This document shows, in pieces, positions 30,922 to 49,330 of a stretch of DNA of 64,000 nt (position 1 is the stretch's first letter; the number at the start of each line of letters is the position of its first letter). This DNA comes from Maritimibacter sp. (GTDB lineage: Bacteria > Pseudomonadota > Alphaproteobacteria > Rhodobacterales > Rhodobacteraceae). The position numbers and the translations under genes were made by a program. The notes under the pieces were generated by a model. That model made no database searches and was not told where the DNA came from. It saw only the letters and a list, made by a program, of their open reading frames with translations. Location: positions 2,826,001-2,890,000 of the forward strand of contig CP051232.1 of NCBI GenBank assembly GCA_017792445.1, in the 5' to 3' direction.

Positions 30922-33873
30922 TCACTCCGCGGCTTTGGGGGGCAGGGCTGCCTTCTGGAGTAGCGCCGCGATCTCCGGCCGGCAAGAGCCGCAGTTGGTG
31001 CCCGCCTGAAGCGCCGCGCCGATCGCTTCGACGGTGCACAGGCCCTGATCCTCGATCGCGGTCAGGATTGTGTTCACGCCGACGTTGAAGCAGGCGCACA
31101 GCACCGGCCCCGGATCGGGGCGGTCGGCGGGCGCGCGGCCCGAGATCGCTCCGGGCGCCTCGGTTCCCGGCAGCCCGGCCACGTAGTCGCGCATCAGCCC
31201 CACCGGTTCAGGAGCGACGAACAGCGCCGCGACCAGCCGGTCGCCCTCGTGGAATGCCAGCCGGTGAATGCCCCGGCCCGCGTCGCTGACCACCTGCACG
31301 GTCGCCTCGGTGCCGAACAGCTTGCGCGCCCAGGCTTCCCAGTCCGCCGGCGCCTCGCGCCCCGCCAGTTCCGCGCGCCATCCGTTGCGGGTGCGGGCGC
31401 GGGCCCAGTACTCGGCGTCGGGCGTCATGTCGCCCGCCGAGACTGCAAAGGCGTACCAGCCCGCCTCGAACTTCTTCATCGCCACCACCGAGGCCTTGCT
31501 TTCCGGCTGCCCCGACACCGGGTCGGTCACGGGCGCCACCAGCGCGTCGATCCGGGCCGAGGGCGCGGTCTCGCCGGTCCAGTGCATCGGCGCGAAGACC
31601 TCGCCCGGGCGGACCTTGTCGGTCACCACGACCCGCAGGATCGCGCGGCCCTGCGTGCTGGTCAGCTCGACAAGATCGGCGGGCGCAAGCCCCAGCTCGG
31701 CGGCGTCGTCAGGGTGGATCTCGCAGAACGGTTCCGGCAGGTGTGCAGAGAGCCGCGGCGATTTCGCGGTGCGGGTCATCGTGTGCCACTGGTCCCGCAG
31801 CCGCCCCGTGTTCAGGCGGTATGGGAAGCGGCGGCCGCGCTTCGATTCCGGCGGGCGGTAGTTCAGCGGGAGCATCCGAGCCTTGCCGTCCGGAGTGTAG
31901 AACTGCCCGTCGGCGAAGAACCGGCCGCCCTGCCGGGTGGCGGTCAGCGGCCAGCGGAACGGCTCCATCGCGTCATAGTCGATGTCGCGCATCCGCGTTG
32001 CCGCCGAGATGTCGAAGTCGCGTCCGAAGATCCCGGCAACCTGGCTGAGACCGGCGTATTCGCGGAAGATCTCGACCGGCGTGGAATAGTCGAAGGCATG
32101 ACGCCAACCCATGCGGCGGCCGACCTCGGCGAGGATCTCCCAGTCGGGCCGCGCCTGTCCCGGCACCGGCAGCGCTGCGCGCTGGCGGCTGATGGTGCGG
32201 TCCGAGTTGGTGACCGTTCCGTTCTTCTCGCCCCAGGCGGCGGCGGGCAGCAGCACATGCGCCAGCCGCGCGGTGTCGTTCTGAGCGGTGATATCGCTGA
32301 CCACCACGAAGTCGCAGCCCTTGATCGCGTCGCGCACCGCGTCGGCGTCGGGCATCGACACGGCGGGGTTGGTGTGGATGATCCACAGCGCCTTGATCCT
32401 CCCGTCGCCCACGGCGCGGAACATGTCGACGGCCTTCAGCCCTGGCGCGGTCGCGATGGTCGGCGCGTTCCAGAAGTCGCGCACCGCGCGGCGGTGGTCG
32501 GCGTTCTCGATATCGAGGTGACAGGCCAGCATGTTGGCAAGCCCGCCCACCTCGCGCCCGCCCATCGCGTTGGGCTGTCCGGTGACGCTGAACGGCCCCA
32601 TGCCGGGCTTGCCGATGCGGCCGGTGGCAAGGTGGCAGTTCAGGATCGAGTTCACCTTGTCGGCGCCCGACGAGGACTGGTTCACGCCCTGACTGAAGAT
32701 CGTGACGACCTTCTCGGTGCCGATCCACATGTTGTAGAACCGGTCGATCAGCGCCTGCGGCAGCTTGGTGACCTCGGCAGGCCGTGCGGTGGACGCGGCG
32801 GCGAGCGCGGCGTTGAAGCCCTCGACGTGGCGCATATAGCCTTTGTCCAGCGCGCCCATCTGGTGAATGCGCGACAGCAGGCCGTTGAACAGCTCGACAT
32901 CGGTGCCGGATTCGATCTGCAGGTGAATGTCCGCCCGGTCACAGGACGCGGTGCGGCGCGGATCGACCACGGCGATCTTCATGTGCGGGCGCTGTTTCTG
33001 CGCCGCGATCACGCGCTGGTACAGGACCGGGTGGCACCATGCGAGGTTCGAGCCGACCAGAACCACAAGGTCGGCGTCCTCGATGTCGTCATAGGTGCCG
33101 GGCACGGTGTCGGTCCCGAAGGCGCGGCGCTGGCCGGCGACGGTCGAGGCCATGCACAGCCGGGAATTGGTGTCGATGTTGCCCGAGCCGATGAAGCCTT
33201 TCATCAGCTTGTTGGCGACGTAGTAGTCTTCCGTCAGCAACTGGCCCGAAACGTAGAAGGCGACGCTGTCGGGGCCGTGTTTCGCGATGGTCTCGCCGAA
33301 GCGGGTCGCGACGAGGTCCAGCGCGCTGTCCCAGTCGGTGTCCGCGCCGTTCACGCGCGGGGCGAGCAGGCGGTCGTCAAGGCCGACGGTCTCGCCCAGT
33401 GCGATGCCCTTCGAGCACAGGCGGCCCCGGTTGGCGGGGTGGTCCGGGTCGCCCTTGACCTCGATGCCGCCCTGACCGTCGGGGGTCAGCAGGACGCCGC
33501 ATCCGACGCCGCAGTAGGCGCAGGTGGAGCGGACAGTGGTTTGGGGTGGGGTGGCTGCCCCCTCCCCCGACCCCTCCCCCTGTAGAGGGGGAGGGGAGCT
33601 ATGGGTGGCGCCGTTCGTGCCAAGGGTCGCGGCGGGGGAACTCCCTCCCCCTTGCAGGGGGAGGGTCGGGGAGGGGGGCACGCCCCCAGAGCCATCCGCA
33701 CTCCCTCCCGCTTGCAGGGGGAGGCTCGGGGAGGGGGTCACCCCCCCAGAAGCATCCGCACTCCCTCCCGCTTGCAGGGGGAGGGTCGGGGAGGGGGTCA
33801 CCCCCCCAGAGCCATCCGCACTCCCTCCCCCTGCCAGGGGGAGGGCTGGGGAGGGGGTCCCCTCCGAAGTCAC
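30922..33873 (-). CDS. nasA: Assimilatory nitrate reductase catalytic subunit with in-frame N-terminal repeat extension
   Basis: A 983-aa molybdopterin (bis-MGD) enzyme reducing nitrate to nitrite. The [4Fe-4S] motif Cys118/121/125 (CAYCGVGC) plus Cys in GRLCSKG opens the real enzyme. A C-terminal BFD-type [2Fe-2S] domain (VLCACFNVGVN...GTNCGSCRPEI) matches the NasA subgroup. Residues 1-116 are abnormal: a Gly/Pro/Ser-rich run of 20-residue repeats encoded by 60-bp palindromic DNA repeats. No start codon fits just before the CAYC motif, so translation should start at GTG 33873, which overlaps the nirD stop (GTGA). The enzyme may carry, or process off, this extension. Confidence 0.93.
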   Translation of the reverse strand: MTSEGTPSPALPLAGGGSADGSGGVTPSPTLPLQAGGSADASGGVTPSPSLPLQAGGSADGSGGVPPSPTLPLQGGGSSPAATLGTNGATHSSPPPLQGEGSGEGAATPPQTTVRSTCAYCGVGCGVLLTPDGQGGIEVKGDPDHPANRGRLCSKGIALGETVGLDDRLLAPRVNGADTDWDSALDLVATRFGETIAKHGPDSVAFYVSGQLLTEDYYVANKLMKGFIGSGNIDTNSRLCMASTVAGQRRAFGTDTVPGTYDDIEDADLVVLVGSNLAWCHPVLYQRVIAAQKQRPHMKIAVVDPRRTASCDRADIHLQIESGTDVELFNGLLSRIHQMGALDKGYMRHVEGFNAALAAASTARPAEVTKLPQALIDRFYNMWIGTEKVVTIFSQGVNQSSSGADKVNSILNCHLATGRIGKPGMGPFSVTGQPNAMGGREVGGLANMLACHLDIENADHRRAVRDFWNAPTIATAPGLKAVDMFRAVGDGRIKALWIIHTNPAVSMPDADAVRDAIKGCDFVVVSDITAQNDTARLAHVLLPAAAWGEKNGTVTNSDRTISRQRAALPVPGQARPDWEILAEVGRRMGWRHAFDYSTPVEIFREYAGLSQVAGIFGRDFDISAATRMRDIDYDAMEPFRWPLTATRQGGRFFADGQFYTPDGKARMLPLNYRPPESKRGRRFPYRLNTGRLRDQWHTMTRTAKSPRLSAHLPEPFCEIHPDDAAELGLAPADLVELTSTQGRAILRVVVTDKVRPGEVFAPMHWTGETAPSARIDALVAPVTDPVSGQPESKASVVAMKKFEAGWYAFAVSAGDMTPDAEYWARARTRNGWRAELAGREAPADWEAWARKLFGTEATVQVVSDAGRGIHRLAFHEGDRLVAALFVAPEPVGLMRDYVAGLPGTEAPGAISGRAPADRPDPGPVLCACFNVGVNTILTAIEDQGLCTVEAIGAALQAGTNCGSCRPEIAALLQKAALPPKAAE
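33571..33596. repeat. G-rich palindrome inside the nasA 5' end
   Basis: CCCCTCCCCCT-GTAG-AGGGGGAGGGG has perfect 11-bp arms. It belongs to the same hairpin family as the tandem array at 33641-33863 but is separated from it by about 45 bp of unrelated sequence (encoding roughly SSPAATLGTNGATH). Confidence 0.8.
33641..33863. repeat. 60-bp tandem palindromic repeat, about 3.7 copies, inside nasA
   Basis: Units begin at 33641, 33701, 33761 and 33821 with exact 60-bp period. Each contains CTCCCTCCC, a short spacer and GGGGGAGG (a hairpin of 8-10 bp), then GGTCACCCCCCCAGA and the constant GCATCCGCA or CCATCCGCA. Sixty is divisible by three, so the nasA frame stays open, and each copy adds about 20 residues (PLxxGGSADGSGGVTPSP). 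Confidence 0.93.
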
Positions 33874-34196
33874 GCCGCGCTCCGCCGGCTCAGCGTGTCG
33901 CCATCGATCAGCACACGCCCGTCCTCGACCCGCACCGGGTAGGTCTCGATCGCATAGCCGTCCGTCCCCGCGCCGGTCTCCAGGTCGAACACCGAATTAT
34001 GCAGCGGGCAGGTGACCTTGTTGCCGTGGACGATCCCTTCGGACAGCGGGCCGCCCTTGTGCGGGCAGGTGTTCGTCACCGCGAACACCCGGTCGTCGCC
34101 GGTGCGGAACAGCCCGATGCAGCCAAGCTGCGTCTTCAGCACCCGCGCCCCGCGCGCCGGGATGTCGTCGATGTGGCCGATGTCGATCCAGCTCAT
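33870..34196 (-). CDS. nirD: Nitrite reductase (NADH) small subunit
   Basis: A 108-aa Rieske-fold protein paired with NirB. It keeps both ligand pairs Cys-Pro-His (NTCPHKGGPLS) and Cys-Pro-Leu-His (VTCPLHNSVFD), so it may bind a [2Fe-2S] cluster, unlike E. coli NirD. The ATG at 34196 is preceded by AAAGGAG and overlaps the stop of a 13-codon relay frame following nirB. The stop overlaps the nasA GTG start. Confidence 0.94.
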   Translation of the reverse strand: MSWIDIGHIDDIPARGARVLKTQLGCIGLFRTGDDRVFAVTNTCPHKGGPLSEGIVHGNKVTCPLHNSVFDLETGAGTDGYAIETYPVRVEDGRVLIDGDTLSRRSAA

Positions 34197-34237
34197 GTCA
34201 CGGGCTCCTTTTGCATCATGTCCGCGAAGGTCATTCC
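34196..34237 (-). other. 13-codon coupling frame between nirB and nirD
   Basis: An ATG overlapping the nirB stop (AATGA) opens the short frame MTFADMMQKEPVT, whose TGA overlaps the nirD ATG (ACATGA). It includes the nirD Shine-Dalgarno AAAGGAG. It may let ribosomes finishing nirB pass on to nirD; a peptide role is not claimed. Confidence 0.45.
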
Positions 34238-36660
34238 GCCGCCTCCAGCGTAAGGTCGGCAATCGGGGCGTACAGCCTGCGCCGGGTGGCGACGTGATCG
34301 GCCCACGGGTCCTTCTGGTAGACCGACTGCGAGATGTCGAAACGCTCGATCAGCGCGGCGCGGGTGGCGGGGTCGCCGACCTGCTCCTTGACCCAGTCCA
34401 GCCCGACCTTCGCCAGCCACTTGTAGGGTCGGTCGAGGTACTTGGCGTGTTCGCGGTACAGCTGGATGAAGGCGACGGTATAGTCGATCGCCTCTTCCTC
34501 GGTCCGGACGTCGACAAGGCGCTCGACCTCTTTCACGTCCATCCCCGCCGCGCCGCCGACGCCGATCTGATAGCCGCTGTCGACGCAGATGATGCCCACG
34601 TCCTTGCAGGTGGCCTCGGCGCAGTTGCGCGGGCAGCCCGAGACGGCGAGCTTGACCTTGTGCGGCGTCCACGAGCCCCAGAGCCTCTTCTCGAGCTTTA
34701 TCCCGAGGCCCGTGGAATCCTGGGTGCCGAACCGGCACCAGTCACTGCCCACACAGGTCTTCACCGTCCGAAGACCCTTGGAATAGGCATGGCCCGACAC
34801 CATGCCCGCGTCGTTCAGATCCGACCAGATCGCCGGCAGATCCTCTTTCTTCACGCCCAGCAGGTCGATCCGCTGGCCGCCCGTCACCTTGACCGCCGCG
34901 CCGTACTTGTCGGCGGCGTCGGCGATGGCGCGCAATTCGTTCGCGTCGGTCATGCCGCCCCACATACGGGGCATCACGCTGTAGGTGCCGTCCTTCTGGA
35001 TGTTGGCGTGATTGCGCTCGTTCACGAAGCGCGACTGCGGGTCGTCCTGATAGTCCAGCGGCCAGTCGGCCAGCAGGTAGAAGTTCACCGCTGGGCGGCA
35101 GACGTGGCAGCCGTTGACGGTCTTCCAGCCCAGTTCCTGCCAGACGGCGGGCTGGGATTTCAGTTCCTTCGACTTGATCAGGCGCCGCACATCCTCGTGC
35201 GTGAGGTCGCAGCAGCCGCAGATCGGTTGAACCGTGGGGATGACGAATTCGTCGCCCAGCGTGACCGACAGCACCTGTTCCACCAGCCCGGTGCAGGTCC
35301 CGCAGGACGCACTGGCCTTGGTGGTCGCCTTGATCGCGGCGAGGTCGGTCGCGCCGCCCTCGATCGCGGCCACGATGTCGCCCTTGCACACGCCGTTGCA
35401 GCCGCAGATCTCCGCCTCAGGCGGCAATGCTGCAACGGCTGAGAGAGGGTCCGCGGTGGCGCCTCCCTGGAAGGACGGGCCGAAGATCAGCGTGTCGCGC
35501 ATGTCCGACACGTCCTCGCCGTCGCGGATCAGGCCGAAGAACCAGTTGCTGTCGGCGGTGTCGCCGTAGAATACGGCGCCGACCAGCTTGTCGCCTTCCA
35601 GCACCAGCCGCTTGTAGACGCCGCGCGCCGGGTCGCGGAACACGATGTCCTCGCGCCCCTCGCCCTCGGCGAAGTCGCCGGCGCTGAACAGGTCGCAGCC
35701 GGTGACCTTCAGCTTGGTCGACAGCTGCTTGACCTTGAAGGTGTCCTCTTCGTCCAGCAGCGTCTTCGCCAGCACCTTGGCCTGGTCGTACAGCGGCGCG
35801 ACCAGACCGAAGAGGTTGCCTTCAAACTCGACGCATTCGCCGACGGCGAAGACCGAGGGATCGCTGGTGCGCATCTGCGCGTCGACCACGATGGCGCGGC
35901 CCATCTCAAGCCCGCTCTCTTTCGCAAGCTGAACCTGCGGGCGGATGCCCACGGCCATCACCACGATGTCGGCCGGAAGGACGGTGCCGTCTTCCAGCAG
36001 GACGCTTTCGACCTTGCCGTCACCCTGGATCATCTTGGTCGACGCCTTGGTCAGCACGGTGATGCCGCGCTTTTCGAGGTCTTTCTGCAGCAGGTAGCCC
36101 GCCGCCTCGTCCAGCTGGCGCTCCATCAGGTGACCCGACAGGTGCAGCACGGTCACGTCCATTCCGCGCATCCGCAGCGCCGCCGCGGCTTCCAGCCCCA
36201 GAAGGCCGCCGCCGATCACCACCGCGCGGCCGCCGGGGGTGCCCGAGGCCTCGGTCATGGCGGTGGTGTCCTCGAGATCGCGGAACGCCACCACGCCGGG
36301 CAGGTCGTGGCCGGGGCAGGGGATGATGAAGGCCGACGAGCCGGTGCCGAACACCAGTTTGTCGTAGGGCACTTCGCCTTTCTCGCCGACGACGACCTTG
36401 CGCTCGCGGTCGACCGAGACGACGCGCTCGCCGAAGCGGCAGGTCACCTTGTTGCCCGCGTACCAGTCGTCGTCATGGGTGACGATTTCGGCATAGCTCT
36501 TCTCGCCCGACAGGACGGGCGACAGCATGATGCGGTTGTAGTTGCCCCGAGGCTCTGCGTTGAACAGCGTGACCTCGTAGGCGTCGGGGTTCGCTTCGAA
36601 CAGCTGTTCCAGCAAGCGGCCAGAGGCCATGCCGGCGCCGATGACGACCAGTTTCTGCAT
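34231..36660 (-). CDS. nirB: Nitrite reductase (NADH) large subunit
   Basis: An 809-aa siroheme enzyme reducing nitrite to ammonium in the cytosol. An N-terminal FAD/NADH module (VVIGAGMASGRLLEQLF; later AVVIGGGLLGLEAAAALR) is followed by BFD-type [2Fe-2S] cysteines (EICGCNGVCKGDI...SASCGTCTGLVEQ), then a sulfite/nitrite reductase domain ending with the siroheme/[4Fe-4S] cysteines (SGCPRNCAEATCKDVG). A second BFD-like cluster (QPICGCCDLTHEDVRR) is also seen. The ATG at 36660 has GGAG 9 bp upstream. Confidence 0.97.
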   Translation of the reverse strand: MQKLVVIGAGMASGRLLEQLFEANPDAYEVTLFNAEPRGNYNRIMLSPVLSGEKSYAEIVTHDDDWYAGNKVTCRFGERVVSVDRERKVVVGEKGEVPYDKLVFGTGSSAFIIPCPGHDLPGVVAFRDLEDTTAMTEASGTPGGRAVVIGGGLLGLEAAAALRMRGMDVTVLHLSGHLMERQLDEAAGYLLQKDLEKRGITVLTKASTKMIQGDGKVESVLLEDGTVLPADIVVMAVGIRPQVQLAKESGLEMGRAIVVDAQMRTSDPSVFAVGECVEFEGNLFGLVAPLYDQAKVLAKTLLDEEDTFKVKQLSTKLKVTGCDLFSAGDFAEGEGREDIVFRDPARGVYKRLVLEGDKLVGAVFYGDTADSNWFFGLIRDGEDVSDMRDTLIFGPSFQGGATADPLSAVAALPPEAEICGCNGVCKGDIVAAIEGGATDLAAIKATTKASASCGTCTGLVEQVLSVTLGDEFVIPTVQPICGCCDLTHEDVRRLIKSKELKSQPAVWQELGWKTVNGCHVCRPAVNFYLLADWPLDYQDDPQSRFVNERNHANIQKDGTYSVMPRMWGGMTDANELRAIADAADKYGAAVKVTGGQRIDLLGVKKEDLPAIWSDLNDAGMVSGHAYSKGLRTVKTCVGSDWCRFGTQDSTGLGIKLEKRLWGSWTPHKVKLAVSGCPRNCAEATCKDVGIICVDSGYQIGVGGAAGMDVKEVERLVDVRTEEEAIDYTVAFIQLYREHAKYLDRPYKWLAKVGLDWVKEQVGDPATRAALIERFDISQSVYQKDPWADHVATRRRLYAPIADLTLEAAE

Positions 36661-36673
36661 GTTCCCCAACTCC

Positions 36674-40465: not shown

Positions 40466-40586
40466 AGGGAGGCCCCCTCCCTGACCCTCCCCCTTCAGGG
40501 GAGGGAAAGTCGCATGTGGCCGATGTCGTGAAAGCCACTGGCGGTGTGTGTCGCTCTCTCCCCCCACCCCGGAGGAGGGGGGAGAG
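40466..40586. repeat. Three G-rich stem-loops between nrtA and nrtB
   Basis: Hairpins: AGGGAGG/CCTCCCT (40466-40482), CCCTCCCC/GGGGAGGG (40485-40505) and CTCTCCCCCC/GGGGGGAGAG (40556-40586), all with perfect arms. The composition matches the palindromes inside nasA, so they look like copies of one dispersed element. They likely stabilise nrtA mRNA and attenuate nrtB. Confidence 0.7.
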
Positions 40587-40601
40587 ACCTGGAGGAGGGA
40601 G

Positions 40602-48451: not shown

Positions 48452-49330
48452 ATGATCAACGCAGACGAGCTGATCGCGATCGACATTCACACCCACGCCG
48501 AAGAGCCGTGCTGCGGCCAGCGTGACGACGGCTATGACGAATTCCAGGCCGGGATGGCGAAGTATTTCCGCAATCCCGCCGGCAAGGACGGGATGCTGCC
48601 CTCGGTGCAGCAGACCGCCGAGTACTTCCGCGAGCGCAAGATCGGCGCGGTGATCTTCCCGGTTGACGCCGAGCGCGAGACCGGCTTCCGCCGCTATTCC
48701 AACGAGGAAGTCGCCGAGATCTGCGCCGAGAACAGCGACATCCTGATCCCCTTCGCCTCGGTCGATCCGTGGAAGGGCAAGGCCGGCATCCGCGAGATCC
48801 GCCGCCTGTGCCGGGACTTCGGCGTCTACGGCTTCAAGTTCCACCCGACGATGCAGGGCTTCTGGCCGAACGAGCGCCAGTTCTACCCGATTTACGAGGC
48901 CATTCAGGACGAGGGCAAGATCGCCCTGTTCCACACCGGCCAGACCGGCGTCGGCTCGGGCATGCCCGGCGGTATGGGGATGCGGCTGAAGTACTCCAAC
49001 CCGATGGCGATCGACGACGTCGCGGCGGACTTCCCGGATCTGAAGATCATCATGGCTCACCCTGCCTTCCCCTGGCAGGAAGAGGCGCTGGCGGTCTGCC
49101 AGCACAAGCCCAACGTCTACATCGACCTTAGCGGCTGGTCGCCGAAGTACTTCCCGGAAATCCTGGTGAAATACGCGAATTCGCTGATCAAGAAGAAGGT
49201 CCTGTTCGGGTCGGACTGGCCGGCGATCACGCCGGACCGCTGGCTTTCGGATTTTGAGAATGCGCCCTTCAGGGACGAGGTTCGCCCGCTCATCCTGAAG
49301 GACAATGCGCGCCGGTTGCTGAACATCTAG
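48452..49330 (+). CDS. Amidohydrolase_2-family metal-dependent hydrolase
   Basis: A 292-aa TIM-barrel hydrolase of the ACMSD/LigW-like family. The metal motif His-x-His is in IDIHTHAEE, further ligands are His in GFKFHPTMQ, His in ALFHTGQTG, His in IMAHPAFPW and Asp in LFGSDWP. In hydroxycinnamate clusters an amidohydrolase of this kind (CouO in Rhodococcus) is proposed to cleave the beta-keto acyl-CoA, releasing the benzoate without an aldehyde step. The same role here is inferred. GGGGAGGAG precedes ATG 48452. Confidence 0.85.
   Translation: MINADELIAIDIHTHAEEPCCGQRDDGYDEFQAGMAKYFRNPAGKDGMLPSVQQTAEYFRERKIGAVIFPVDAERETGFRRYSNEEVAEICAENSDILIPFASVDPWKGKAGIREIRRLCRDFGVYGFKFHPTMQGFWPNERQFYPIYEAIQDEGKIALFHTGQTGVGSGMPGGMGMRLKYSNPMAIDDVAADFPDLKIIMAHPAFPWQEEALAVCQHKPNVYIDLSGWSPKYFPEILVKYANSLIKKKVLFGSDWPAITPDRWLSDFENAPFRDEVRPLILKDNARRLLNI

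Follow-up and report, generated by a model that had tools for sequence, protein, structure and literature searches.

Triplex-type palindromic elements in frame with nasA at the nirD/nasA overlap of a Maritimibacter genome

The genome of Maritimibacter sp. analysed here (G000) consists of 4,675,334 bp on one contig, and the window is the stretch of 64 kb of this contig that was studied. It contains the genes nirB, nirD and nasA, whose features are summarized in Table 1 together with those of related elements elsewhere. None of the NCBIfam nitrate reductase models matches the nasA product above cut-off, the best two (Fdh-alpha and NasC) both falling below it, and the name nasA is based on its domains, on the adjacent genes and on relatives with a nitrate reductase annotation. 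On the minus strand, the nirD stop codon TGA (33872-33870) overlaps the nasA start codon GTG (33873-33871), and a Shine-Dalgarno-like GGAG is found 6 nt upstream of this GTG, within nirD. A 4-nt overlap of nirD and the nitrate reductase gene is annotated likewise in two named records.

Table 1. Positions of genes and triplex-type elements at the nasA locus of the window and of selected arrays at other loci
Feature	Position	Strand	Remarks
nasA ORF	33873..30922	minus	983 aa, GTG start
nasA GTG start codon	33871..33873	-	overlaps nirD stop as GTGA
nasA codons 1-117, predicted repeat-encoded N-terminal extension to first cysteine	33523..33873	-	
nasA conserved body	30922..33522	-	Molybdop_Fe4S4, Molybdopterin, Molydop_binding, C-terminal Fer2_BFD
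nirD, nitrite reductase small subunit	33870..34196	-	TIGR02378 above cut-off; upstream of nasA
nirB, nitrite reductase large subunit	34231..36669	-	TIGR02374 above cut-off
Triplex-type element 1, nearest start codon	33823..33858	+	from nasA codon 6
Triplex-type element 2, 60-bp register	33763..33798	+	degenerate, 2 mismatches to published pattern
Triplex-type element 3, 60-bp register	33703..33738	+	degenerate, 3 mismatches to published pattern
Triplex-type element 4, 60-bp register	33643..33678	+	
Triplex-type element 5, inverted	33557..33596	-	0 mismatches to published TMECO pattern
Seven-element array	L009, G000:C1 307177-307661		between genes by ORF context; irregular spacing
Seven-element array	L010, G000:C1 2618353-2618800		between genes by ORF context; exact 69-bp spacing
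G343 nasA element pair	L169/L195, G343:C11 about 48700-48850		

The first cysteine of the CxxC motif is residue 118 of the nasA product, and the DNA before it carries an array of five palindromic elements in one open frame with nasA, four of them direct in a 60-bp register and one inverted. Tandem Repeats Finder reports a period of 60 with 3.7 copies and 91% matches at 33640-33859. Element 1 begins 11 nt beyond the nirD stop, and the hairpin of element 5 (33571-33596) is formed by arms of 11 bp around a loop of 4 nt. An earlier sequence-only reading had described four 60-bp units and a related hairpin with 11-bp arms between the GTG and the cysteine motif; the repeat and hairpin coordinates confirm this, with the refinement that the units are not all alike in orientation, the four direct ones lying on the plus strand and the fifth, inverted, on the minus strand. 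The arrangement is consistent with an inverted pair, one arm of which has been repeated. The frame is indeed unbroken throughout the array, as that reading had also stated, but its openness is cheap evidence, since composition alone keeps a given frame open in 25% of base-shuffled arrays; open frames occur likewise in the nasA array outside the nasA frame, and in two further arrays.

A listing of every in-frame ATG, GTG and TTG of nasA places them at codons 1, 25, 45 and 65 only, the in-frame GTGs falling in three units of the array, and there is no canonical start codon between the array and the CxxC motif. The distance to the motif is 53 codons from the nearest in-frame start and 117 codons from the overlap GTG. 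In the other nasA loci with a listable start, G002 (cut by a contig end) and G343 being set apart, the nearest in-frame start lies 4-23 codons before the motif in 38 out of 38 cases. The sequence-only reading had put a normal NasA start within about 10 residues of the motif and the added stretch at about 115 residues; counted from the GTG, the extension is 117 codons, 102 more than the 15 of the congener G001.

Each unit consists of a pyrimidine stem, a short loop, a complementary purine stem, a loop of about 3 nt and a mirrored purine stem. This class II intrastrand triplex layout was found in all five units (stems 8-11, 1 mismatch) with a finder purpose-written after the rules in PMC4666352, namely a pyrimidine stem, a loop of 1-6 nt, a complementary purine stem, a loop and a mirror purine stem, with at most one mismatch. 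Six triplex-type elements were found in the window and none in five base-shuffled windows; the array structure is not due to chance. A further triplex-type element of the window is located at 40472-40505, and a second G/C-rich hairpin at about 40558-40590. The published TMECO pattern is CCCTCNCCC N3-6 GGGNGAGGG N3 GGGNGAGGG, with one stem mismatch allowed (PMC4666352). Three of the five units are within this limit (0, 1 and 1 mismatches) and two are beyond it (2 and 3), while mismatches across the 29 elements of the genome described below range from 0 to 8. Judged by layout and, in three of the five, by pattern, the units are probably G/C-rich intrastrand-triplex-type (TM) elements. In E. coli MG1655, TM/TMECO elements are described as always intergenic (PMC4666352), whereas the array lies within the nasA open frame and further elements lie in carB, lgt and a GNAT gene of other genomes; being intergenic has been described of these elements but does not define them. 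The stretch 33400-34000 gave 26 weak Rfam matches up to E 1, none of them at the gathering score.

The repeat was sought genome-wide, as the sequence-only reading had proposed, and it proved to be dispersed. A covariance model built from 12 elements gave 41 matches in G000 at E <= 0.01; 12 of these were dropped as consisting of the hairpin part only (in 11 cases that hairpin as read on the opposite strand, in one a hairpin lacking the third stem), leaving 29 elements at 12 places. Neighbouring elements, picked by hand among the matches listed, form 13 pairs in the -+ orientation, 1 in +-, 9 in ++ and 7 in --. Mobilisation by RAYT was considered and rejected, since the domain Y1_Tnp (PF01797) of this enzyme, the sole mobilising enzyme sought, has no match in G000; it is present in one of seven genomes searched (G343). 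In a sample of the family, 39 of 295 genomes, G000 included, carry matches at E <= 1e-6, so that the element is patchy in the family, and the covariance model gave no match in the congeners G003 and G004. Two congeners have elements at what is apparently a shared gene junction (L114, G002:C10:147165; L126, G001:C33:61687), and some element sites thus seem to be old and inherited. With the array as query, blastn found three plasmid records (two of Neorhizobium, one of Deinococcus) and nothing in E. coli genomes, and tblastn of a repeat peptide found nothing in plasmids.

In this bacterial family, elements are usually found downstream of a stop codon, at distances between a few nucleotides and a few dozen. 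Among 83 other sites in nine genomes, 52 have a gene 3' end facing them at 60 nt or less, compared with 74 of 1179 random points taken from the same loci under the same 60-nt rule, which is the valid comparison for a survey that sees only genes ending at most 60 nt away. Only one site lies inside a gene body (614 of the 1179 random points do), and 31 have no facing 3' end. The distance from stop to element, capped at 60 nt by design, has a median of 17 nt; its commonest single value is 11 nt (5/52), which is also the spacing of the nasA array from the nirD stop. In G000 itself, 10 of the 11 other places have a facing gene 3' end no more than 60 nt away. The survey sites come from the matches listed, mostly the best-scoring, with L119-L122 and L131 (weak or contig-edge sites) and the arrays at nasA in G000 and G002 omitted, and their genes were called by a codon-usage test trained on genes of the window; both sites and genomes are related, so that a p-value calculated from these counts comes out too small.

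Among congeners the junction occurs both with the array and free of it. In G001 the GTGA overlap and the GGAG are as in G000 and the array is absent, and at nasA of G004 it is likewise absent. In G002, whose NasA is 96% identical, the array is present and is split, the nirD contig ending and the nasA contig starting inside it. In the visible part of G002, a first unit of 54 nt is followed by a single unit of 60 nt, compared with 54 + 3 x 60 nt in G000; the visible array is 120 nt shorter than that of G000, in frame, free of stops and with codon 1 as its only canonical start, the unseen stretch corresponding to 32 nt of the G000 array, across which the frame is assumed. The sequence-only reading had suggested comparing the array and its copy number among relatives, and both differ (four direct units in G000, two visible in G002, no array in G001 and G004), the G002 count being subject to a possible collapse of units, since this is a draft metagenome-derived assembly, labelled 10% contaminated, whose contigs end in the array.

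The two parts of NasA appear to evolve differently. Between G000 and G002, the body comparison (883 residues, including 17 tail residues on G002's contig) gives dN 0.025 and dS 0.314 by NG86, a dN/dS of 0.08, and YN00 gives dN 0.020 and dS 0.864, which differs in dS and points in the same direction. Residues changed amount to 39/883 in the body comparison and 11/49 in the tail, where dN and dS are both 0.134 and their ratio is about 1.0 over 49 codons with 18 nucleotide differences. The contrast in dN/dS, small as the tail sample is, fits a working enzyme with an unconstrained tail. AlphaFold2 assigns a pLDDT below 50 to residues 1-110, in a whole-protein model that is only moderate (mean pLDDT 66.7, pTM 0.68), and the NasA tail is accordingly predicted to be disordered.

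We think it probable that a TM element of the kind that neighbours stop codons entered the nirD/nasA overlap, persisted in frame and now forms a near-neutral tail of NasA, whose translation we infer from the arrangement of the locus. An inverted element pair would have been inserted 11 nt after the nirD stop in the common ancestor of the G000 species and G002. By way of the overlap of the nirD TGA with the nasA GTG, the point of insertion would at the same time be nasA codon 6 onwards; the element would be coding here because nirD and nasA overlap, and the insertion would have survived only through keeping the nasA frame. One arm would then have changed in number in steps of 60 bp (20 codons), by slippage or unequal exchange. 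Translation would start from the ancestral GTG, served by the GGAG inside nirD, and give NasA a disordered, Gly/Pro/Ser-rich and near-neutral tail of roughly 100 residues that the enzyme would tolerate. The insertion itself and the preference for its target we infer from the placement of the elements. That NasA carries a repeat-encoded tail, one of the options of the sequence-only reading, is probably right.

That reading had also allowed for a true start elsewhere, which for canonical codons is possible inside the array only. Translation of NasA would then begin at one of the codons 25, 45 and 65 or at some non-canonical codon, and part of the array would be an untranslated leader. The internal GTGs of the three units could be used instead of codon 1, and N-termini that contain REPs are described as often untranslated, with starts downstream (PMC3733652). 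On the other hand, codon 1 is the only canonical start in the visible part of the G002 array, the ancestral GTG with its upstream GGAG has been kept, and a start at codon 65 would still translate the inverted element, and we regard an internal start as unlikely. It is also rather improbable that the array acts chiefly through its structure, in mRNA or DNA, to tune nasA against nirBD by translational coupling, processing or pausing, its coding being incidental. The array region folds strongly (z -5.19), and the mRNA hairpins that the sequence-only reading had named may have some effect on nasA expression; separate element pairs are found at the nirD-nasA junction of G343 and the nirB-nirD junction of G198. 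However, elements 2 and 3, as well as the two units visible in G002, have stem mismatches, which indicates that the hairpins are not strictly kept, and elements adjoin many other genes. Moreover, a nasA match at E <= 1e-100 is present in 19 of 38 element-bearing genomes, and only two of these 19 have element-like 7-mers within 600 nt upstream of nasA; the other 17 have none near the gene.

The tail being an adaptive feature of NasA, for partner binding or targeting, would agree with a tail that, in the sequence visible from two species, has no stop and keeps the frame, and with the separate extension in G343; given a dN about equal to dS, a share of changed residues far above that of the rest of the protein and the predicted disorder, we consider it very improbable. 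Least credible are two further readings, nasA as a decaying pseudogene and the array as an artefact of assembly. Repeat tracts can assemble badly, and the G002 contigs do end in the array; against this stand the strong constraint on the nasA body and, for the assembly error that the sequence-only reading had named as a way to be wrong, the single 4.68-Mb contig of G000 and the presence of the array in a second species, which make such an error unlikely.

Elements in frame with genes are not restricted to this locus. They were sought by scripts plus reading and found in at least 4 of the 83 sites, a lower bound since one script pattern, covering 54 clusters, missed many loci. In G343, which belongs to another genus, the nasA ATG overlaps the nirD stop and an inverted element pair lies in frame before CPYC; internal starts are available there, the last (GTG) 16 codons before the CxxC motif, and could serve, sparing the protein most of its tail, so that translation of this tail is not forced. 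The GNAT gene of G024 (L143 1915-2517) has an ATG overlapping the preceding stop and carries one element within its N-terminal coding part, in the same frame; the 173 nt that follow the element contain no canonical start. In lgt of the same genome (L146 about 2480-2510), the C-terminal residues of prolipoprotein diacylglyceryl transferase and the stop codon come from an element. In carB of G067 (L182 2483-2518), an element lies in frame at residues 424-436, before the oligomerisation domain (468-546). The peptide of this element in the carbamoyl-phosphate synthase large subunit resembles that of the nasA unit.

An inverted element pair is also located between nirB and nirD in G198 (L184, G198:C2 near 480044). 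By eye, this pair is flanked by a 16-nt near-duplicate that keeps the nirB stop and nirD start context, which could be a target duplication. In G080 (L030), of another genus, the nasA start is immediately preceded by a pair of palindromic repeats of a different kind. As a tentative view, which we hold to be somewhat doubtful, elements that insert by stops and are made coding by ATGA or GTGA overlaps may be a general route to protein tails in the family, with nirB-nirD-nasA as a recurrent target (G000/G002, G343 and G198), perhaps since structure at the junction tunes nasA; the recurrence at nirBD-nasA is a post hoc observation.

Palindromic elements inside genes are already known. In the searched parts of the open-access literature, we met no report of a triplex-type element as protein-coding or tied to overlapping genes, and the peptide strings LPLQGGG and PSPTLPL were not found there; among the matches listed, searches on CCCTCCCCC, palindromic and alphaproteobacteri repeats, and on overlap-translated repeats, gave nothing on point. 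The nasA locus suggests a route by which an 'intergenic' repeat may become protein, by landing on the stop/start overlap of two genes, and congeners with and without the array offer a natural experiment on whether such repeats impose a cost on an enzyme or tune it. For annotators it is a caution that repeat-encoded N-termini may be real.

Compared with known systems, the elements resemble TM/TMECO (PMC4666352) in the order of stems and loops, in dispersed copies, in inverted pairs and in being near the published pattern, with two of the five units degenerate; unlike those described from MG1655, they are here in tandem and in an ORF, and a triplex is predicted for them from the sequence layout. 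With REPs they share short palindromes, frequent placement by gene 3' ends and occasional reading in frame: REPs of the GTAG/CGTC families occur in ORFs, some of them in frame, with clusters encoding up to 82 residues and a number sitting at N-termini, and REPs between genes of one direction have a similar 3'-end habit (PMC3733652, which also mentions the Rickettsia palindromic elements, RPE). They differ from GTAG/CGTC REPs with RAYT in that 25 of the 29 elements have no terminal tag (the tetramer or its complement being absent from the elements plus 8-nt flanks) and G000 has no RAYT-type gene.

RPE are palindromes that lie in frame within genes for unrelated proteins. The sequence-only reading had compared the nasA repeats with them, and palindromic elements in frame are the right comparison. 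Unlike RPE, the element here is mostly non-coding and sits by gene 3' ends, with carB as the only gene-body case among the surveyed sites. At nasA itself the likeness lies in a putative in-frame insertion into a conserved gene, which congeners have with and without the array.
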